In this document: positions 25,087 to 61,411 of the stretch, in pieces | Position numbering within the stretch: position 1 is the first letter of the stretch | Layout: each line of letters opens with the position of its first letter | DNA from: Kiritimatiellaceae bacterium | GTDB lineage: Bacteria; Verrucomicrobiota; Kiritimatiellia; Kiritimatiellales; Tichowtungiaceae | NCBI GenBank assembly: GCA_013141415.1 | Contig: JABFQY010000003.1 | Span: 457,729-521,728 of the forward strand | Direction of reading: 5' to 3' | DNA length: 64,000 bases | Notes under the pieces: model-generated | Seen by the model: the letters and a program-made list of their open reading frames with translations, nothing else | Told to the model about the DNA's origin: nothing | Database searches by the model: none | Position numbers and translations under genes: made by a program

Positions 25087-25134
25087 GTAGGACAGGCTTC
25101 CAGCCTGTCTGGACAGGCAGGATGCCTGTCCTAC
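25087..25134. repeat. REPIN: two GTAG hairpins in inverted orientation
   Basis: GTAG at 25087 is followed by GACAGGCTTCCAGCCTGTC, then the mirror unit ends in CCTGTCCTAC at 25134. Both ends are GTAG feet facing outward as GTAG...CTAC. The right CTAC contains the TAG stop codon of murJ (25131-25133). The first half has the same hairpin as the ends of the xseA insertion. Confidence 0.85.
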
Positions 25135-26705
25135 TTTTTCCGCCGGACGACGGCGTTGAAGACCTGGGCGGCTTCGCGGCGGCAAAGCAGGACAGAGGCG
25201 AGCAGATAAACGATCATGCCGCCGGCGATGGCGCCGCCGACAGAAATAAACTGCGTCAGTTTTCCGGCGAGGTGATTATTCAGTGCCTGAAAAATCCAGC
25301 CGTGAACGAAGATTACCGTCGCGCCCATAATCACGGCGGCGATCAGCGCGCGTCCGGCTCCGGCCAGTACCGACAGCCAGCCGGGCGATCCGATGCGACG
25401 TCCGAGCCGCCAGCCGAGCGTCAGTCCGTTGAAGGCTTCCGATACGACCGCTGAACCGGCGAGGCTCATGGCTTTGTATTCGGTCGGCAACGATAGCGTG
25501 AAAATCAGGTTGAGCGAAAAGTTGATGCCGACGCTGTAGAGTCCGTTGCGATACGGCGTGCGGGTGTCGCCCAGTCCGTAGAAGGCCGGAACAAAAACTT
25601 TGGCCAGTCCGAAAAAGAAAAGGCCCGGCGCATAAACGCGCAGTACCGATGCCGTTCGATCCACGGAATCGACATCAAAATTGCCCCACCCCAAAAGCAT
25701 TTCAGTGACCGGACGGGCCAGCGCCATCAGGCCGACCGCCGCCGGTATCATGACAAACAAAAGCATCCGCAGGGCGCGGTTGATGGTCAGGCGGATACGT
25801 TCCTCTTCGCCGACGGCGGCGTGGTTGGAGAATACCGGAAGCAAAACGGTGCTCATGGCGGTGGCAAGAATGCCCTGCGGAAAGTAGAGCAGGCGTTCAG
25901 CGAAATACATGGTAGCGGCGGCCCACGGCGTCGCCCAGCGCGCCATGATGCTGTTGATGGTCATGTTAACTTGCGAAACGGACTGGCCGAGCGCGGTCGG
26001 CGCCATCAGGCCGATGAAGCGGGTGACCTGCGGATCCTTTGCATTCAGATCGACGCCCGGCCGCCAGCCGAGCCGGTACATGGCGGGAATTTGCGCCGCC
26101 AGCTGTACCGCGCCCGCCACTAGCACGCCGAACGCGACGCCGGCGATTTGATCTTCCGGTGTTGCACCCATCCGCGGGCAAACGAAAATCACAAAGGCGA
26201 TCCAGGTAATGTTCAGCAGGCAGGGGGTAAAGGAAGCCAGCGCGAATTTGCCGAAGCTGTTGAGGATTCCCTGAGACAGCGCGGTCAGGCAGATGAAAAA
26301 GAGGTACGGAAGCATGATGCGCAGAAGCGGCAACGTCTGCGTTCCTTTGCGGAAGGCTTCGACCAGCGGCGGAAAAAAGGTGATGCCGATGCCGATCAGA
26401 ACAATGACGATCAGAATCGCGCCGATCAGCGTCAATACCCGGCGGGCGAACCGCCAGGCCGCCGTCTCGCCTTCTTTGGCACGAACCGCTGAAAAAACCG
26501 GCACAAAGGCAGAGGAAAGCGCCCCTTCGCCGAATAGCGCACGAAACATGTTCGGGATGCGAAAGGCGACGACAAAGTCGGACATCACCGCACTGGTGCC
26601 GAAGGCGGCGGCGGTGACGGTTTCGCGCAGCAGACCGAGAAGACGGCTCAGCATGGTGAACAGGCTGACGGTTCCAACCGAGCGGAATAATTTACGGTGT
26701 TCCAT
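25131..26705 (-). CDS. murJ: Lipid II flippase MurJ
   Basis: 524 residues with about 14 transmembrane helices. Family motifs are SVGTVSLFTMLSRLLGLLRE at the N-terminus, ALFGEGALSSAFVPVFS, and FFGLAKVFVPAFYGLGDTRTPY around the tenth helix. MurJ flips lipid II across the inner membrane for peptidoglycan synthesis. The ATG at 26705 was preferred over an in-frame TTG 21 bases upstream. Its last codons run into a REPIN that provides the stop. It is divergent from the lpxC-like gene. Confidence 0.95.
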   Translation of the reverse strand: MEHRKLFRSVGTVSLFTMLSRLLGLLRETVTAAAFGTSAVMSDFVVAFRIPNMFRALFGEGALSSAFVPVFSAVRAKEGETAAWRFARRVLTLIGAILIVIVLIGIGITFFPPLVEAFRKGTQTLPLLRIMLPYLFFICLTALSQGILNSFGKFALASFTPCLLNITWIAFVIFVCPRMGATPEDQIAGVAFGVLVAGAVQLAAQIPAMYRLGWRPGVDLNAKDPQVTRFIGLMAPTALGQSVSQVNMTINSIMARWATPWAAATMYFAERLLYFPQGILATAMSTVLLPVFSNHAAVGEEERIRLTINRALRMLLFVMIPAAVGLMALARPVTEMLLGWGNFDVDSVDRTASVLRVYAPGLFFFGLAKVFVPAFYGLGDTRTPYRNGLYSVGINFSLNLIFTLSLPTEYKAMSLAGSAVVSEAFNGLTLGWRLGRRIGSPGWLSVLAGAGRALIAAVIMGATVIFVHGWIFQALNNHLAGKLTQFISVGGAIAGGMIVYLLASVLLCRREAAQVFNAVVRRKK

Positions 26706-46670: not shown

Positions 46671-46701
46671 AGCTTTCTCCTTTTAAACCCCATTATGGAC
46701 T

Positions 46702-46792
46702 GCGGCGGCTTGCCGCCGCTTTCACAGGCGAAGCTTGCTTCGCCCGCTCACCGAAGCAAGCTTCGGTAACCAAAGCGCAGGCAAGCCTGCGC
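46702..46792. repeat. Cluster of four perfect short hairpins
   Basis: In 91 bases: GCGGCGGC/GCCGCCGC (46702-46719), GGCGAAG/CTTCGCC (46727-46744), CCGAAG/CTTCGG (46751-46766) and GCGCAGGC/GCCTGCGC (46775-46792). They lie between priA and the osmC-like gene. No GTAG foot is present, so they are a different palindromic family from the REPs elsewhere. Confidence 0.85.
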
Positions 46793-46806
46793 ACTCCAAA
46801 CCTTTT

Positions 46807-49704
46807 TCACAATAACGAAGTTGCATCCACATCCACCGTCACCTTAACCGTCTTCGGCAGTTTCATCATTCCGAACGCCGCGCGGATGGCGTCATTCATC
46901 GTTTTCGTCCGCGCCGCCCGCAACAGAATCTGCCAGCGGTATTCGCCGCGCATCCGGGAAATCGGCGCAGGGATGGCCGGTGAAAGTACAATTCCACCCG
47001 CCGCCGTTTTTTCTAAACATTGGAAAAGCTTCTCCGCCGTCGCTTCCACCTCGGCCTCGTTTTTGCCGCGCAGTGTAATGCAGGTCAAATGAGTATAAGG
47101 CGGATAACCCAGCTCTTTGCGGAAGGCCATCTCCTGTTCGCAGAAACCTTCAAAATCCATTCGCCGCGCGGCCTGTACCGCCGGATGGTGCGGCGTGTAG
47201 GTTTGCACGATCACCTCGCCAGCCGCCTCGCCGCGCCCGGCGCGGCCCGCTACCTGCGTCAGCAGTTGAAATACCCGCTCCCCGGCGCGGAAGTCGGCCA
47301 TGTGCAACGCGTGGTCAGGATTCACCACGCCGACCAGCGTGACGTTCGGAAAATCCAATCCTTTGGCGATCATCTGCGTGCCGATCAGAATATCGATTTT
47401 GCCGGTGCGGAATTTTGCCAGTACATCGCGGTGCGCATTCTTGCGGCGCATCGTGTCGGAATCCATCCGCTCGATCCGCGCTTTCGGAAACAGCTTTAAC
47501 ATCACTTCTTCAATTTTTTCCGTACCGGCGCCGCCGTGGCGGAACTTGTCGGACTTACACTCCGGACAGCGCACCGGCACCGGTTTTTCTTCGCCGCAGA
47601 TGTGGCAGACCAGCTTTGCCCGCGCCTTATGAAACGTCATGCCGACACTGCAATGCTCGCATTCCGCCACATAGCCGCAGTCAGGACAGATCAGCGACGA
47701 AGCGAATCCGCGCCGGTTCAGGAAAATCATCGTCTGTTCGGCGCGGTCAATCCGGATGCGGATGGCTTCGACCAGCTCGCGAGAAAACAGCACCGGCTTA
47801 CCTTCCCGCTCTGCCGCAATGCGCATGTCCACAATATGGATCGGCGGCATCCGGCGGTCGTCCACGCGGATCGGCAGTTCGACGTAGCGGTATTTGCCGC
47901 TCTTCGCATTGGCGTAGGATTCCAGCGCGGGCGTCGCCGTACCCAGCACGACGGCGCACTTTTCCATTCTGCCGCGCATCACGGCGGTGTCGCGGGCGCT
48001 GTAGCGCGGCACTTCGTCCTGCTTGTAGGTCGGCTCGTGCTCTTCGTCCACCACGATCAGGCCGAGATTATGAACCGGCGCAAACAGCGCCGAACGTGCG
48101 CCGACCACAATCTGCGCTTCGCCGGAGCGGATGCGGTGCCACTCGTCGTAGCGTTCGCCGTCGGACAGCGAGCTGTGCAGAACGGCCACCCGCTCCGGCT
48201 TATCGGCAAAGCGCGAGCGGAAACGGTCAACGGTCTGCGGCGTCAGCGCGATTTCAGGCACCAGTACAATCGCGCCTTTGCCCTGCTCCAGCGCATGGGA
48301 AATCGCCTGTAAATAAACTTCCGTCTTGCCGGAACCGGTCACGCCGTGAAGAAGCAATACCGGCGGATCGGTTTCGTCCATCGCTTCGACAATCTGTTTC
48401 AGTGCCACGGACTGCTGTTCCATCAGCGCCAGCGGTTCGGTCTTGAGCAGTTCAACGCCTTCGTGCGGATCGCGGTAAACCGACTCGTTGGAAATCGTCA
48501 CCAGGCCCTTTTTCTCCAGCGTTTTGATGGTTGCCGCAGAAACTTCCGCCGCAACCGTCAGCTCCATTAGGAGCATCGAACCGGCGCGTTGAAGAAGATC
48601 AATTATTTTTTGCTGTTTGGGAGTTAACGTAGACGCGACGCCCCCGTCGCGTTCTTCTCTCTTAAAAATGCTGTATGTCCCTGATGCAAGCCCTTTGGGG
48701 TTTTCTTCAATATACCGCCTGAACTTTTCCAGACTCTCCGGACTGCGCACGATATGGTCAAATGACCCCTTCTGCCAAACCGACTCAGACTGTCCTGTCA
48801 GTTTCTTGATCTTCCGGGCAGATATTGATTTCCACGCCTGAACAATCGCGGAAAGAGTGTGGTCTCCAAGAGGAGAGACCAAAACATGGACATGATTCGG
48901 CATAACAATATAACTTCGGAGATCATACTGCACACCCTGCTTTGCATACAGTGCATCAACAACAGGCTTGCGTAGTTCCGGTCTTTGAAAAACGCAGAAA
49001 CCAGATCCCTGATCAAGCCAGCGCTCGAAGCGTTCTGTAAAACAAGTTCGGTATGTCTGTTGCCACTCAGCTAAATGCGACGAGGGCGTCGCATCTACGT
49101 TGTCTTCTGTAGACACGACGCCCTCGTCGCGTCCTGCCGCTGGTTTAGGGTTTTCAGCAAGCCATTCATCCCGTTCCTTCTGCCACTGCTTCAGCTTTTC
49201 CTGCGGCAAAGAGTCAGCCAGCCGGAAAGTCACGAAATAGGTAGTGCCGTCCTGCCGCCAGTGCGAAAGGCTGCCGCCAGAAGAATGAGAAACAGCCAAG
49301 GATAAATCAAAACTGTTAAAACGCGACGAGGGCGTCGCGTCTACATTCAGAGAAACCGTCAGCTGTTTCTTGCCGCCACTTTCTTTGTTGCGGACAACGG
49401 CGGGAAGCAGAGTCCGCACGCAGGTTTCGAATGGTGCCAAATAGTAAGAAGACATCCAGCGCGCTAACTCCATGACCGATTCGGTAACCAGCGACTTTTC
49501 GCCCAGTACTTTACCGATGGGTTTGAGATCACCAAAAGCCGACTTATCCGCAAAACCGACCACGAAGCCGGTCACCGTCCGCGACCGGAACGGCACTTCG
49601 ACCCGCGAGCCGATCTCGACCAGCGGACGGAGCGGCTCGGGAATCAGATAGTCGAACTCACGGTCCAGCGAGAGGTCAACAGCGACTTTGGCAATGCGGT
49701 TCAT
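46807..49704 (-). CDS. priA: Primosomal helicase PriA with an in-frame transposase domain insertion
   Basis: 965 residues against about 730 for PriA. Residues 1-120 are the 3' DNA-end binding domain; residues from about 360 resume with the winged helix (TPKQQKIIDLL), Walker A GVTGSGKTE (residues 454-462), DEEH, four zinc CxxC pairs (CPDC, CEHC, CHIC, CPEC) and the C-terminal WRWQILL-type block. Residues 121-358 are a complete Y1 transposase domain of REP-associated type (HUH His271/His273, Tyr331), flanked by REP hairpins that are themselves translated. Removing them leaves 726 residues, a normal PriA. The frame has no stop. The ATG at 49704 gives the standard PriA start. Whether the fusion protein works or is processed is unknown. 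Confidence 0.95.
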   Translation of the reverse strand: MNRIAKVAVDLSLDREFDYLIPEPLRPLVEIGSRVEVPFRSRTVTGFVVGFADKSAFGDLKPIGKVLGEKSLVTESVMELARWMSSYYLAPFETCVRTLLPAVVRNKESGGKKQLTVSLNVDATPSSRFNSFDLSLAVSHSSGGSLSHWRQDGTTYFVTFRLADSLPQEKLKQWQKERDEWLAENPKPAAGRDEGVVSTEDNVDATPSSHLAEWQQTYRTCFTERFERWLDQGSGFCVFQRPELRKPVVDALYAKQGVQYDLRSYIVMPNHVHVLVSPLGDHTLSAIVQAWKSISARKIKKLTGQSESVWQKGSFDHIVRSPESLEKFRRYIEENPKGLASGTYSIFKREERDGGVASTLTPKQQKIIDLLQRAGSMLLMELTVAAEVSAATIKTLEKKGLVTISNESVYRDPHEGVELLKTEPLALMEQQSVALKQIVEAMDETDPPVLLLHGVTGSGKTEVYLQAISHALEQGKGAIVLVPEIALTPQTVDRFRSRFADKPERVAVLHSSLSDGERYDEWHRIRSGEAQIVVGARSALFAPVHNLGLIVVDEEHEPTYKQDEVPRYSARDTAVMRGRMEKCAVVLGTATPALESYANAKSGKYRYVELPIRVDDRRMPPIHIVDMRIAAEREGKPVLFSRELVEAIRIRIDRAEQTMIFLNRRGFASSLICPDCGYVAECEHCSVGMTFHKARAKLVCHICGEEKPVPVRCPECKSDKFRHGGAGTEKIEEVMLKLFPKARIERMDSDTMRRKNAHRDVLAKFRTGKIDILIGTQMIAKGLDFPNVTLVGVVNPDHALHMADFRAGERVFQLLTQVAGRAGRGEAAGEVIVQTYTPHHPAVQAARRMDFEGFCEQEMAFRKELGYPPYTHLTCITLRGKNEAEVEATAEKLFQCLEKTAAGGIVLSPAIPAPISRMRGEYRWQILLRAARTKTMNDAIRAAFGMMKLPKTVKVTVDVDATSLL
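48629..49344 (-). mobile_element. RAYT/REP element inserted in frame in priA
   Basis: Inverted REP hairpins bound the unit: on the gene strand it opens GTAGACGCGACGCCC at 49344 and closes with the mirror copy ending GTCTAC at 48629. Between them lies a transposase of the REP-associated tyrosine family: TYFVTFRLADSLP near the start, IVMPNHVHVLVSP with the HUH pair, and FRRYIEENP with the catalytic Tyr. The 716-base span is one short of a multiple of three. A further REPIN sits inside the transposase (49077-49131). The element is read as part of PriA. Confidence 0.92.
49077..49131. repeat. REPIN inside the priA-borne transposase
   Basis: Two hairpins of the ACGCGACG/CGTCGCG family, CGACGAGGGCGTCGC...CTAC (49077-49098) and GTAG...CCCTCGTCGCG (49109-49131), with a 10-base spacer. 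The GTAG feet face each other, opposite to the order at 51369. It adds about 18 translated residues to a loop where the xseA transposase has none. Confidence 0.85.
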
Positions 49705-50203: not shown

Positions 50204-50698
50204 TCAGGCTTTCGGCAGCGCGATACGCTTAGCGTCGTTCCAAAGTTTTTCGAGGTCGTATAGATTGCGCATCTCAAAACTGAAAACGTGAATCATCACG
50301 CCGTCGTAGTCCACGATGACCCAGCCGCTGTCGCCGGTTCCGGCGGCGCGGTAGCCTTCGTACTGCTCGTTTTTGCAGAGGCGCTGAAGACCGTCGCTCA
50401 ACGCCTTGAGGTGCGGAGCATTGGCGGCGGTGGCGATGATGAAATAATCATACAGACTGGACAACGGACGCATGTCGAGTATGGCGATATTCTCGGCCTT
50501 TCTGTCGTCCAGGAACTTGACCGCCTTCTGCACAACCTCCGACAATGGCCCCGCTTTGGGAGCCGCCTTCTTCGGCACGGCCTTGGCGGGTTTTACGACT
50601 GGCTTCGCCTTGGGGGCGGCCTTGGCAGCTTTTTTGACCGGTTTCGAGGCGACAGCTTTTTTAACCACCTTTTTCTTCGTCACTTTTTTCTCAGCCAT
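50204..50698 (-). CDS. rsfS: Ribosomal silencing factor RsfS with lysine/alanine-rich N-terminal tail
   Basis: 164 residues. The C-terminal 105 residues are RsfS (VVQKAVKFLDDRKAENIAILDM, YDYFIIATA, GVMIHVFSFEMRNLYDLEKLW), which binds L14 and blocks subunit joining in starvation. The first 55-60 residues are a repetitive Lys/Ala/Pro tail (PKKAAPKA, KPVKKAAKA) resembling histone H1 tails and absent from most RsfS proteins. The ATG at 50698 overlaps the end of nadD (ATGGCTGA), so the two are coupled. Confidence 0.93.
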   Translation of the reverse strand: MAEKKVTKKKVVKKAVASKPVKKAAKAAPKAKPVVKPAKAVPKKAAPKAGPLSEVVQKAVKFLDDRKAENIAILDMRPLSSLYDYFIIATAANAPHLKALSDGLQRLCKNEQYEGYRAAGTGDSGWVIVDYDGVMIHVFSFEMRNLYDLEKLWNDAKRIALPKA

Positions 50699-51311
50699 AT
50701 AATCCATGCTCCGCAATATACATTTCCACTTCTGGCGGCACAAGGTAGCGGATACTCAGCCCTTCCGCCAGCCTCATCCGGATATCAGAGGCGGAAATTT
50801 CGATCTCGTGAATCCGGATCAAACGCTCCATCAGCCGGGTTTTCCAAGGCTCGGAAAGCTTAATCTTTGCCGCAATCTGCGCCGAATCCTCACCGCCACG
50901 CGCAAACGGTACGATGGTACACATTTCGAGCAGTTGATCCACATTCCGCCACGCATGGAGAATGGTCAGCGAATCAAGCCCGACAATGAAAAACAGCTCC
51001 GCGCCGGGATGCTCGGACTGGACCTGCGTCATCGTATCGAAGGTGTAGGAAACCCCGCCGCGCTGAAGCTCCATATCCGAAACCTCAAAGCTCAGATTTC
51101 CCTCCGTGGCCAATTGAAGCATTTCGAACCGGTGACGCCCTTCGGCCAGCGCCTTGCCCTGCTTATGCGGCGGCACGGCGGCGGGCACAAAAATCAGACG
51201 GTCGAGCTCCAGCTGTTCTACGGCGTCCTGTGCAATCGTCAGATGTCCCATGTGCACCGGATCAAACGATCCGCCGAACACCCCGATCCGCTCTCTGTTT
51301 TTTCCAGACAT
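50691..51311 (-). CDS. nadD: Nicotinate-nucleotide adenylyltransferase
   Basis: 206 residues. GVFGGSFDPVHMGHL holds the nucleotidyltransferase HxGH motif and ISASDIRMRLAEG the ISxTxxR motif near the C-terminus. NadD makes deamido-NAD from nicotinate mononucleotide. It begins the nadD-rsfS operon commonly seen in bacteria. No ribosome-binding site is evident; the start is close to a phrase-like repeat that may hold the promoter. Confidence 0.95.
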   Translation of the reverse strand: MSGKNRERIGVFGGSFDPVHMGHLTIAQDAVEQLELDRLIFVPAAVPPHKQGKALAEGRHRFEMLQLATEGNLSFEVSDMELQRGGVSYTFDTMTQVQSEHPGAELFFIVGLDSLTILHAWRNVDQLLEMCTIVPFARGGEDSAQIAAKIKLSEPWKTRLMERLIRIHEIEISASDIRMRLAEGLSIRYLVPPEVEMYIAEHGLYG

Positions 51312-51315
51312 TGGA

Positions 51316-51352
51316 AAATTTTTACCACAGAAAACACAGAAAACACGGAAAA
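51316..51352 (-). promoter_or_regulatory. Phrase-like repeat upstream of nadD, possible promoter
   Basis: On the minus strand it reads TTCCGTGTTTTCTGTG followed by TTTTCTGTGGTAAAAAT, seven bases before the nadD ATG. A related phrase, TTTTCGTGCTCTTCGTGGC followed by TACTCT, precedes the priA start. TGTGGTAAAAAT could act as an extended -10, giving a very short or absent leader. Confidence 0.35.
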
Positions 51353-51368: not shown

Positions 51369-51431
51369 GTAGACGCGACGCCCTCGTCGCGTTTCTTAAC
51401 TGGAACAACGCGACGAGGGCGTCGCGTCTAC
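51369..51431. repeat. REPIN of the priA-insert family in intergenic DNA
   Basis: GTAGACGCGACGCCC... (51369-51391) and its mirror ending GTCTAC (51409-51431), 17 bases apart. The orientation is the same as the two ends of the priA insertion, so this looks like a transposase-free (MITE-like) version of that element. It lies between nadD and the GH5 gene. Confidence 0.9.
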
Positions 51432-51549: not shown

Positions 51550-52554
51550 ATGCGGAAATTCATACTGCTGTTCATCCTGCTCGCCGCATCAGTTCACGCT
51601 GGGTCTTATCCCGGACTCAAAGTACAGGGGCGGTACCTTTACGACCCTGCCGGTGATCGGATTACCCTGCGCGGCGCCAATGCCATGATTGTCTTCTGGG
51701 ACCGCTACGGAGAAAACAATTATGCCGAACTCGCAAAGACCGGCGCCAACTGCTGCCGCATTTTCTGGTCGACGGGACACGAGTCGGAACCCGTCATGCC
51801 GGCATCGGATCTGGACAAGACGCTGAGTAATTGCATCAAAAACAAAATGATCCCGATCGTGAGCGTATGGGATGCTACCGGTGACTGGAGCAAATTCCAG
51901 AAGTGCGTGGATTACTGGACCCGCCCGGACGTTTCGGCGGTTTTGAAAAAACATGAAAAATATCTTCTGCTGAACATTGGCAATGAAGTCGGCACGGTCG
52001 TCAGCAATGAAGTGTTCCGCGAAAATTATAAAACCGCCGTAAACCAAATCCGGAAAGCCGGCATTCACGTTCCGCTGATCATTGATGCCGACGGCTACGG
52101 CCGTAATGCAAAAACCCTGCTGGAAAACGGACCGTATCTGCTGGCCGAAGACCCCGATCAAAACCTCATTTTCTCGTGGCACCTGTGGGATCCGATGAAG
52201 TACGGCGGCGGCTCCACCGATTCAATCCGCAAGTTCATCGACGGCTCAATTGAAAAAGACATCTGCTTCATCGTCGGCGAGTTTGGCCCCACCGAATTCG
52301 GCGACCAGCCCGCCTCCGGCAAAGTGAACTGGGAATACCTGATTGAATACGCCGACAAAAAAGATATCGGCTGGCTGGCCTGGGTATGGAACTTTTCGGA
52401 CCGCCACTCCATCGTCAACCCGGCCACCGGAAAATTCGGCGACTGGACCAACTCGCCCTGGGGCGAACAGGTCGCCGTCGCCAGTCCTTACAGCATAAAA
52501 AACACAGCCAAGAAAACACAGTGGCTGGAGAACGGCGTCAAAGGCGCGAAATGA
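51550..52554 (+). CDS. Secreted glycoside hydrolase family 5-like enzyme
   Basis: 334 residues with a signal peptide (MRKFILLFILLAASVHA). The (beta/alpha)8 enzyme shows LLLNIGNEVG with the acid/base Glu around residue 142, WHLWDP, and FIVGEFGPTEFG with the nucleophile Glu around 239, as in GH5 mannanases and endoglucanases. AAAGGAG precedes the ATG. It probably degrades external beta-mannan or beta-glucan. A GH5 subfamily cannot be assigned by eye. Confidence 0.85.
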   Translation: MRKFILLFILLAASVHAGSYPGLKVQGRYLYDPAGDRITLRGANAMIVFWDRYGENNYAELAKTGANCCRIFWSTGHESEPVMPASDLDKTLSNCIKNKMIPIVSVWDATGDWSKFQKCVDYWTRPDVSAVLKKHEKYLLLNIGNEVGTVVSNEVFRENYKTAVNQIRKAGIHVPLIIDADGYGRNAKTLLENGPYLLAEDPDQNLIFSWHLWDPMKYGGGSTDSIRKFIDGSIEKDICFIVGEFGPTEFGDQPASGKVNWEYLIEYADKKDIGWLAWVWNFSDRHSIVNPATGKFGDWTNSPWGEQVAVASPYSIKNTAKKTQWLENGVKGAK

Positions 52555-58718: not shown

Positions 58719-59489
58719 ATGAAAATCCTCTTTACAGGCGATATGGTCGGCAGTGCGGGTCGGCAGGTTTTTCAGCGTGTGACCGACCGGCTGCGCGCCG
58801 AAGGCCGGATCGATCTCGTGATCGCTAACGCCGAGAATGCCGCCGGAGGACGCGGGCCTTCGCCGGAAATCGTCGAGGCGCTTTTCGCCGCCGGAGCCGC
58901 CGCGCTAACGCTCGGCGACCACGCATGGGACGATAAAAACCTGACCAGCCTACTGGAAACCGAAACACGACTGATCCGTCCGGCGAATTTTCCGCCCGCC
59001 GCCGCAGGCCGCGGAATGACAACCATCGAAACCGACGAAGGGCCGATCTGCATTATCTCGCTGATCGGGCGCGTTTTTCTAGATCCGGCCGACTGCCCGT
59101 TCCGCGCCGCCGACCGGCTGATCGGCATGAGCAAAGCCAAAACCATTCTGATTGATTTCCACGCCGAGGCGACCTCGGAAAAAATCGCGCTGGGCCGCTA
59201 CCTCGACGGACGCGTCACCGCCCTGCTCGGAACGCACACTCACGTTCAGACGTCGGACGAAAACATCCTGCCGAACGGCACGGCTTATATCACCGACCTC
59301 GGTATGACCGGCCCGAAAGATTCCGTGATCGGCCGCGAAGTGGAGCCGGTTATTCAGCGCTTTATCACCGGCATGCCGCAAAAGTTTGATACGTCAAATA
59401 AAGATCCGGCGCTCGAAGGCGTCATTCTGGATATCGATATCAAAACCGGCAAGGCCCGCTCGATTGAACGGATTCGCGAAAGAGCCTGA
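58719..59489 (+). CDS. ymdB: YmdB family metallophosphoesterase
   Basis: 256 residues. MKILFTGDMVGSAGR at the N-terminus, IANAENAAGG, LGDHAWDDK and LLGTHTHVQTSDE supply the di-metal ligands of the YmdB family, 2',3'-cyclic nucleotide phosphodiesterases. The ATG at 58719 was preferred to an upstream in-frame GTG. Its stop overlaps the xseA start (TGATG). Confidence 0.93.
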   Translation: MKILFTGDMVGSAGRQVFQRVTDRLRAEGRIDLVIANAENAAGGRGPSPEIVEALFAAGAAALTLGDHAWDDKNLTSLLETETRLIRPANFPPAAAGRGMTTIETDEGPICIISLIGRVFLDPADCPFRAADRLIGMSKAKTILIDFHAEATSEKIALGRYLDGRVTALLGTHTHVQTSDENILPNGTAYITDLGMTGPKDSVIGREVEPVIQRFITGMPQKFDTSNKDPALEGVILDIDIKTGKARSIERIRERA

Positions 59490-61411
59490 TGGAAGAAACG
59501 CGGAAAATTTACAGCGTCGCCGAACTCAACCGCGCCGCGCGGTTTACGCTCGAAAACGGCATCGGCGAAGTGTGGGTCGAGGGCGAAATCTCGCGCCTGA
59601 CACGCCAGTCGAGCGGTCATTGGTATTTCACTCTCAAGGACGAAGCCGCCGCCGTTTCCTGCGCCATGTTTAAACAGAATAACGCCGCCGCGACGTTCGA
59701 GCCGAAGGACGGACTTAAGGTGCGTGTTCTCGCACAAGCCAGCCTCTACGAGCCGCGCGGAAGTTATCAGCTCATTGTCCGCAAGATGGAAGAAGCCGGT
59801 AAAGGCTCGCTTCAGGAGCAGTTCGAAAAACTGAAAGCCAAGCTGTCCGCCGAAGGGCTGTTCGACGCCAGCCGTAAAAAACCGCTACCGCTTCTGCCGC
59901 AAAAAATCGGCGTGGTCACCTCGCCCACCGGCGCGGCGATCCGCGATATCATCAACGTGCTGACACGGCGGTTTCCGAATATTGAAATCCTGCTCGCGCC
60001 GGTTACCGTGCAAGGCGAAGGCGCGGCGGAAAAAATTGCCGCCGCAATTGATTATTTGAATACATACAACAGGAAAGTAGGACAGGCTTCCAGCCTGTCC
60101 ACAGAGAGTGAGAAGTTCTTCACCCCATGGCTCCCTGTCGATATAGAAAAGCGTCATCTACCGCATTGGAATCAGGACAATGCCTCCTACTTTGTCACCT
60201 TCCGGCTGGCTGATTCACTGCCGCATGAAAAACTCCAGCTCTGGCAACAGGAGCGCATCCAATGGCTAAAGTCGCATGACGAACCTTATTCTAAAAACGA
60301 ACTAACGGAATATTCGAAACTGTTCAGCGAACGGATTAATCAATGGCTGGACGTCGGTTCGGGATCCTGTCTGTTGGCCGAGAAGCAAAACGCGTCCGTT
60401 GTAGAAGCCGCAATGCAACATTTCGACGGCAATCGCTACCGGCTGGGCTCATACGTGATAATGGCCAACCATGTTCACGTCCTTGTCTCACCACTGCCCG
60501 GCAATAACTTGGCAGATATTCTTCATTCGTGGAAATCGTTCACAGCAAATCGGATTAATGAACAAACCGGGCGACGCGGTGCCGTATGGCAGGATGAATC
60601 ATACGACCACATTGTGCGAAGCCCGGAACAACTGTCTTTTTATAACGACTACATTCGGAAAAATCTCAATCAGTCGAAAGAAACGGCTGTGGCACGAATA
60701 GACAGGCTGGAAGCCTGTCCTACTTTGCCGATCGATCTCATTATTGTCGGGCGCGGCGGCGGAAGTATTGAAGACCTTTGGGCGTTCAACGAAGAAGTCG
60801 TGGCGCGAGCCATCGCCGCATCGCGGATTCCGGTCATCTCGGCGGTCGGCCACGAAATTGATTTTACGATCAGCGATTTCGTCGCCGATGTGCGCGCGCC
60901 AACACCATCAGCGGCGGCCGAGCTGGCCGTGCCGGTCAAAGCCGAACTGGAAATGCAGATTGTGCGGTTGGCCGCGCGGCTCGGCGGTTCACTGCAAAAT
61001 CAGGTTCATATTCTGCGTGAGCGGATTCCCGGATTTCGTCAGACCATGGTTCATGCACTGACGGACGGGCTCCGGTTACGACAGCAAAAGGTGGATGAAA
61101 CCAGCCGAACGCTTGCCGAGTGTTTGAAGAATGCGGTAACAATTCAAAAACAACGCCTGCCCGGATTGCAACAGACTATGGATCACCGGATGGAAAGTGC
61201 GGTGGCAGAACGGAAACAGAATCTGCGCAGGCTGGAATCTCAACTGCGTGCATTAAGCCCGCTGGCCGTGCTGGATCGCGGTTACAGCCTGACACAGACG
61301 GAAGACGGCACCGTTGTGCGTGATATCGCGCAGATCAGAGCAGGCGGAACAGTTCGTACGCGATTGGCAAAAGGGACGTTCATTTCAGAAGTCAAAAAGA
61401 AGGAGGCATGA
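59489..61411 (+). CDS. xseA: Exonuclease VII large subunit with an in-frame transposase domain insertion
   Basis: 640 residues against roughly 400-460 for XseA. Residues 1-100 are the OB-fold (YSVAELNRAARFTLE, GEISRLTRQSSGHWYFTLKD); the catalytic domain begins near 130 (KIGVVTSPTGAAIRDI) and is broken after TVQGEGAAEKIAAAIDYL. It resumes at residue 413 with LPIDLIIVGRGGGSIEDLWAFN, followed by the coiled-coil C-terminus. Residues 197-412 are a complete REP-associated Y1 transposase domain (HUH His328/His330, Tyr388). Without the insert the length is about 424 residues, normal for XseA. The insertion lies in a loop between a helix and the next strand of the catalytic fold. The whole frame is open. 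Confidence 0.95.
   Translation: MEETRKIYSVAELNRAARFTLENGIGEVWVEGEISRLTRQSSGHWYFTLKDEAAAVSCAMFKQNNAAATFEPKDGLKVRVLAQASLYEPRGSYQLIVRKMEEAGKGSLQEQFEKLKAKLSAEGLFDASRKKPLPLLPQKIGVVTSPTGAAIRDIINVLTRRFPNIEILLAPVTVQGEGAAEKIAAAIDYLNTYNRKVGQASSLSTESEKFFTPWLPVDIEKRHLPHWNQDNASYFVTFRLADSLPHEKLQLWQQERIQWLKSHDEPYSKNELTEYSKLFSERINQWLDVGSGSCLLAEKQNASVVEAAMQHFDGNRYRLGSYVIMANHVHVLVSPLPGNNLADILHSWKSFTANRINEQTGRRGAVWQDESYDHIVRSPEQLSFYNDYIRKNLNQSKETAVARIDRLEACPTLPIDLIIVGRGGGSIEDLWAFNEEVVARAIAASRIPVISAVGHEIDFTISDFVADVRAPTPSAAAELAVPVKAELEMQIVRLAARLGGSLQNQVHILRERIPGFRQTMVHALTDGLRLRQQKVDETSRTLAECLKNAVTIQKQRLPGLQQTMDHRMESAVAERKQNLRRLESQLRALSPLAVLDRGYSLTQTEDGTVVRDIAQIRAGGTVRTRLAKGTFISEVKKKEA
60077..60723 (+). mobile_element. 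RAYT/REP element inserted in frame in xseA
   Basis: The unit opens GTAGGACAGGCTTCC at 60077 and closes with the inverted copy ending GCCTGTCCTAC at 60723. Between lies a REP-associated tyrosine transposase: SYFVTFRLADSLP, VIMANHVHVLVSP with the HUH pair, VWQDESYDHIVRSPEQ and YNDYIRKN with the catalytic Tyr. The 647-base span is one short of a multiple of three, as in the priA unit. Both hairpins are translated within XseA. The transposase is intact. Confidence 0.93.

Follow-up and report, generated by a model that had tools for sequence, protein, structure and literature searches.

The REPIN at positions 51369-51431 of the window (the whole stretch of 64,000 nucleotides analysed here) is probably a non-autonomous element of a 29-copy family, whose cognate transposase, acting in trans, would be the RAYT that lies in frame inside PriA. 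The REPIN itself is of a familiar type and not unusual within it; what is new is the protein-embedded RAYT that probably serves it. An initial annotation had proposed a non-autonomous REPIN mobilised by the PriA-borne transposase, and this proposal is supported by a census of REP-bounded RAYTs, by co-occurrence across genomes, and by bare REPINs at the priA site of relatives.

The forward REP, GTAGACGCGACGCCCTCGTCGCGT, occupies positions 51369-51392 and its reverse complement occupies positions 51408-51431, as read directly from the sequence. The 63-nt element (plus strand) consists of two REPs, inverted head to head, with a short spacer and a GTAG tag at each outer end. Its loop measures 15 nt with 24-base arms and 17 with 23-base arms, and the 17 bases given between the hairpins in the initial annotation are correct for the latter. 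Folded as single-stranded DNA, the element has a predicted energy of -35.8 kcal/mol, versus a shuffle mean of -12.3 (z = -11.2), and none of 200 shuffles equalled it. It is confirmed that 51369-51431 is a genuine REPIN with a stable single-strand hairpin.

The REPIN is intergenic and lies between two divergent genes: a nadD-like nucleotidyltransferase (50691..51311, minus strand), whose start at 51311 is 57 bp away, and, on the opposite side, a GH5 cellulase-like gene (51550..52554, plus strand), whose start at 51550 is 118 bp away. The region upstream of nadD was read in 11 relatives from the genus, and no clean empty site was found; only G008 retains a recognisable nadD upstream context, with remnants of another REP family in it. 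A TTTCCAATGTTTGGAAA-like palindromic motif occurs in the window at 47006-47027, at 51297-51318 and in the left flank of the REPIN, and is also present upstream of nadD in relatives.

The genome (2.22 Mb in 7 contigs, 95.5% complete) contains 68 copies of the hairpin core GCGACGNNNNCGTCGC versus zero for a backwards control pattern, hence the copies are not due to chance. From fetched genome stretches, 29 forward-reverse REPINs of the 51369 type were read, plus two of a related GTGTCC type. The genome-wide count suggested by the initial annotation therefore yields a multicopy family, although 29 REPINs and 68 hairpins are modest in comparison with the hundreds reported elsewhere. Twelve of the 29 REPINs are in frame within genes, distributed among eight unrelated hosts: an AddB-like PD-(D/E)XK nuclease (three REPINs), TilS and PrmC (two each), MetG, a Mur ligase, LigA (near its end), a HAD hydrolase, and a DFP/CoaBC protein. 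The family of each host was assigned with Pfam, and the more specific gene names are our own reading. One of the REPINs in the AddB-like ORF (L041, C5:90755-90864) contains in its loop a second palindromic repeat, which resembles that of the RAYT at C6:123743, and the same ORF additionally holds an XseA-type REPIN.

Among 23 distinct REPINs, the arms are 95.6% identical on average, whereas the loops are barely more alike than shuffled loops. With loops that are nearly unrelated between such similar arms, there is no sign that whole units moved recently, which counts against the explanation preferred here. Conserved arms with unconserved loops would also be expected if the REPINs were immobile relics or host signals, with arms maintained through selection or gene conversion, and if the PriA-RAYT were a domesticated protein with the REPs as its binding sites. 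RAYTs have indeed been described as domesticated and vertically inherited (PMC8049555). We regard this reading as unlikely, given the REPINs in frame in eight unrelated genes and the history of the priA site described below. Two pairs of REPINs have identical loops (C3:549963 and 550987; C7:21424 and 21625); the second pair also has common flanks, which makes local duplication likely rather than separate insertion.

The priA gene (46807..49704, minus strand) encodes a protein of 965 aa, counted from a Met at position 49704, with the RAYT embedded in frame between the 3'-binding domain (3'BD) and the winged-helix/helicase part, and no stop codon interrupts this frame. From outer REP to outer REP, the element spans 48629..49344 (minus strand). 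The outer REPs are a forward copy with one mismatch (48629..48652, plus strand), read on the coding strand as ERDGGVAST, and an exact reverse copy (49321..49344, minus strand), read as NVDATPSSR. Both match the 51369 REPIN in sequence and orientation, in line with the initial annotation, which had described its hairpins as those of the priA insertion. Two further REPs lie in the RAYT linker: a reverse copy with two mismatches (49075..49098, minus strand) and a forward copy with one (49109..49132, plus strand). All four REPs are translated, and since the REP ends contain no stop in this frame, host protein and transposase would be made as one polypeptide. An imperfect 47-nt inverted repeat, belonging to another GC-rich palindromic family, lies just past the priA 3' end (46696-46798).

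The PriA RAYT presents an HUH motif (NHVH) and a catalytic-type Tyr (in YIEENP), and its C-terminal part is covered by Pfam Y1_Tnp, which the fusion matches with 35.7 bits (cut-off 23). Against NCBIfam REP_Tyr_transpos (NF047646) the fusion scores 60.4, below a cut-off of 80 that is a name-giving threshold rather than a biological feature. Modelled alone with AlphaFold, the RAYT yielded a confident fold (mean pLDDT 83.5), and its best PDB match, both by sequence and by fold, is 4er8, a TnpAREP bound to a REP hairpin, with 14% identity in the structural match. The model of the whole fusion was weak (mean pLDDT 57.9, pTM 0.34) and was set aside. The RAYT dN/dS ranges from 0.04 to 0.16 across the six pairs with finite dS, one of seven pairs having given infinity. 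Two other readings of the insert were rejected. No intein/Hint domain was matched by Pfam in the PriA fusion or in the 45 other RAYT-bearing ORFs scanned, which argues against an intein; RNA splicing was discarded as well, given that a spliced insert needs no open frame.

The initial annotation correctly pointed to the transposase embedded in PriA, yet two other embedded RAYTs of the same genome were missed. The first is in xseA (59489..61411, plus strand), where a second in-frame RAYT element (60074..60726, plus strand) is bounded by perfect 26-nt terminal inverted repeats and belongs to a different REP family, with 23 exact copies genome-wide. The second, outside the window, is in a B12-radical-SAM gene, and its REP is scarcely amplified: six hairpins are found in the genome, four of them at its own locus. 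The XseA-RAYT family also has a REPIN at window positions 25087-25135, whose loop is 2 nt long.

Given 15 Y1_Tnp matches exist genome-wide, another RAYT, be it a stand-alone gene or the domain within XseA or the radical-SAM protein, could be what mobilises the 51369 REPIN. Three of these matches (C1:442862, C6:123743 and C1:104659) are within about 1.2 kb of a family REPIN, which is more than expected by a rough estimate. Nevertheless, the PriA match is the only one bounded by the 51369-type REP. The initial annotation had suggested a check for a stand-alone RAYT of the same family; in this genome, 95.5% complete, the other 14 matches are without this REP at their ends. Moreover, the RAYTs at C1:442862, C6:123743 and C3:579741, as well as those in XseA and the radical-SAM gene, each have hairpins of their own. 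No homolog of the stand-alone RAYTs at C1:442862 and C6:123743 reaches E <= 1e-12 in G010 or G037, despite the 11 and 10 REP copies these genomes carry, and G029, with 48 copies, holds just a 44% partial match to C6:123743. Mobilisation by another RAYT is thus improbable.

The association between the REP and the PriA-RAYT was measured on 43 genomes from two families, at the level of Kiritimatiellales, by counting exact REP copies outside the RAYT's own locus; the two priA copies of G010 were subtracted. The six carriers of a type-A PriA-RAYT present 45 (G000), 48 (G029), 11 (G010), 10 (G037), 0 (G017) and 0 (G003) copies. The 37 non-carriers present 0-8, with 24 of them having none and 13 having 1-8. 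The difference yields p = 0.008 in a Mann-Whitney test and p = 0.015 in a within-family rank permutation. In G003, the catalytic Tyr of the RAYT is replaced by His, the sole Tyr-less case among 97 embedded RAYTs, and re-counting this genome as a non-carrier gives p = 0.0015, in a test chosen after the data were seen. As a single case, this Tyr loss could be a consequence of the missing REP copies rather than their cause. G017 is an exception: its type-A RAYT is intact, yet no CCCY REPs exist outside priA, and its other REPs have TCCY loops. REPs with the same stem and a TCCY loop are abundant in G017 (14) and in G031 (13).

The XseA RAYT offers a second pairing: carriage of its subclade 2, taken from the RAYT tree, is associated with its own GTAGGACAGGCT REP with p = 6e-6. 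The cross-pairings of each RAYT with the other's REP show no association over the 43 genomes (p = 0.16 and 0.22), and XseA carriage does not track the 51369-type REP, which further argues against the XseA RAYT as its mobiliser. Hence, REP copies outside priA track the PriA-RAYT lineage, and the XseA-embedded RAYT tracks its own REP.

A match to the PriA 3'BD exists in 36 of 45 genomes, and the linker was examined in 32 of them, with G018, G021, G036 and G044 left out. It contains a RAYT in 17 genomes (in G029, split over two contigs), none in 13, and is unreadable in two. At the DNA level, G004 and G025 have a bare in-frame REPIN at the site; G008 has a single REP there, and G020 lacks any insert. 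Among relatives, one and the same priA site can therefore be empty or hold one REP, a bare REPIN or the whole element. In the RAYT tree, sequences group by host gene: the ten CCA rows form one clade (98/93), the nine XseA rows another (95/76), and the 17 PriA rows fall into two lineages. Mapping the six type-A rows onto the tree of the host PriA takes six changes, a number equal to that of shuffled labels. Between G010 and G003, dS is 2.3 for the RAYT, to be read only as "larger than" since values above about 1.5 are near saturation, versus 0.36 for PriA; in the type-C pair G031-G038, it is 0.92 for the RAYT and 1.00 for PriA. The mismatch with the host tree and these dS contrasts indicate that in some lineages the occupant of the priA site has been exchanged time and again, by transposition or by recombination via the priA flanks, whereas in others it has been passed on by descent. 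Such gain, loss and replacement of the RAYT, in conflict with the host tree, argues against the domesticated protein considered above.

The RAYT family resides in frame inside several host genes, including PriA, XseA, CCA transferase, LeuRS, ClpB, CarB and HsdR. In relatives, hosts comprise CCA transferase, mevalonate-diphosphate decarboxylase, a CmoB-like methyltransferase, HypF, restriction enzymes, and others. Among named genomes, 52 of the best 80 of 345 relatives are embedded, being flanked on each side by an open frame of 80 residues or more; these 80 relatives are the closest to the PriA-embedded query and constitute a non-random sample. Pfam was applied to 30 ORFs of the first set, 28 of which show a host family. 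In the second set, 15 of the 52 embedded ORFs were scanned, and their hosts include ClpB, LeuRS, CarB, HsdR, MmeI and SNF2. Perfect terminal inverted repeats of at least 14 nt were found at 32 of the 52 embedded loci, versus 0 of 50 control windows; the 20 loci without them include the Roseibacillus LeuRS. The catalytic Tyr is present in 96 of 97 embedded copies, a count for which 70 and 68 rows were merged, 12 presumed duplicate loci left out, and 18 unclear rows kept separate. The HUH count is partly ascertained, because one search pattern contains NH.

Given most of these genomes are draft MAGs, the embedded RAYTs might be artefacts of assembly or annotation, or pairs of unrelated adjacent genes mistaken for a single one. 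This is very improbable and largely refuted: the identical join, at one codon position in PriA, recurs in independent assemblies, host Pfam domains flank the RAYT on both sides, and the join is also seen on long contigs and in a named strain, Roseibacillus persicicus KCTC 12988, whose RAYT is embedded in LeuRS.

In the preferred explanation, in which the PriA-embedded RAYT serves the 51369 REPIN, the HUH Y1 domain would act in trans on single-stranded, GTAG-tagged REP hairpins, and the priA element would be the autonomous form of the family (REPtron). From the evidence above, we infer that cleavage and mobilisation of REPINs of the 51369 type are the work of the PriA-RAYT fusion itself. In-frame residence presumably protects the frame of the transposase from decay. 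A broader proposal, which we hold with more doubt than confidence, is that protein-embedded REPtrons may be a widespread, homing-like selfish class, in which a complete HUH transposase, with palindromic ends that can be translated, enters important genes at fixed positions, is produced within the host protein, mobilises REPINs from there, and keeps its frame because losing it would break the host gene. If true, its fusion to PriA could deliver the transposase to the single-stranded DNA of restarting forks. The long persistence of single-copy RAYTs and REPINs has been presented as an open question (PMC8049555), and in-frame residence in genes that are hard to lose offers a concrete, testable answer. 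The results also show that a transposase of 200 residues can be accommodated in enzymes such as PriA, LeuRS, ClpB and CarB. Annotators should be warned that such long proteins have been treated as errors; a survey of TnpA proteins, for instance, discarded unexpectedly long ones, taking them for fusions or mistakes of annotation (PMC6006769).

The literature already describes REPINs and RAYTs, GTAG tags, REPs within tnpAREP genes, and in-frame REPs in repair genes. For whole RAYTs in frame inside host genes, no published description was found in a search that covered few subscription journals and preprints. Rickettsia palindromic elements, like the REPs described here, are palindromic mobile DNA translated within host proteins, yet, unlike the priA element, they carry no transposase. 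Intragenic GTAG REPs of Opitutus terrae and others are similarly in frame in DNA-repair and tRNA genes, and such REPs also occur in the PVC group; as described in the available portion of that study, they are REPs alone, mostly of 20-30 residues, with no RAYT in the host gene (PMC3733652). TnpAREP subclass 2.4 has REPs inside the tnpAREP gene, comparable to the PriA RAYT linker, although no surrounding host gene is described in the accessible sections of the source (PMC6006769). The E. coli TnpAREP (PDB 4er8) shares the HUH Y1 fold and the GTAG-tagged REP hairpins, but is presented, in the part of the article drawn on here, as a free protein, with no fusion to a host enzyme (PMC8266576). The REPINs of Pseudomonas fluorescens SBW25 are alike in having two inverted REPs, a less conserved spacer and one joint hairpin, and movement in trans by a single-copy RAYT has been proposed for them (PMC3116915). 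Unlike in SBW25, as far as the consulted text of that work describes it, the likely RAYT here lies within a host replication gene and is co-translated with it, and 12 of 29 REPINs are in frame in genes.
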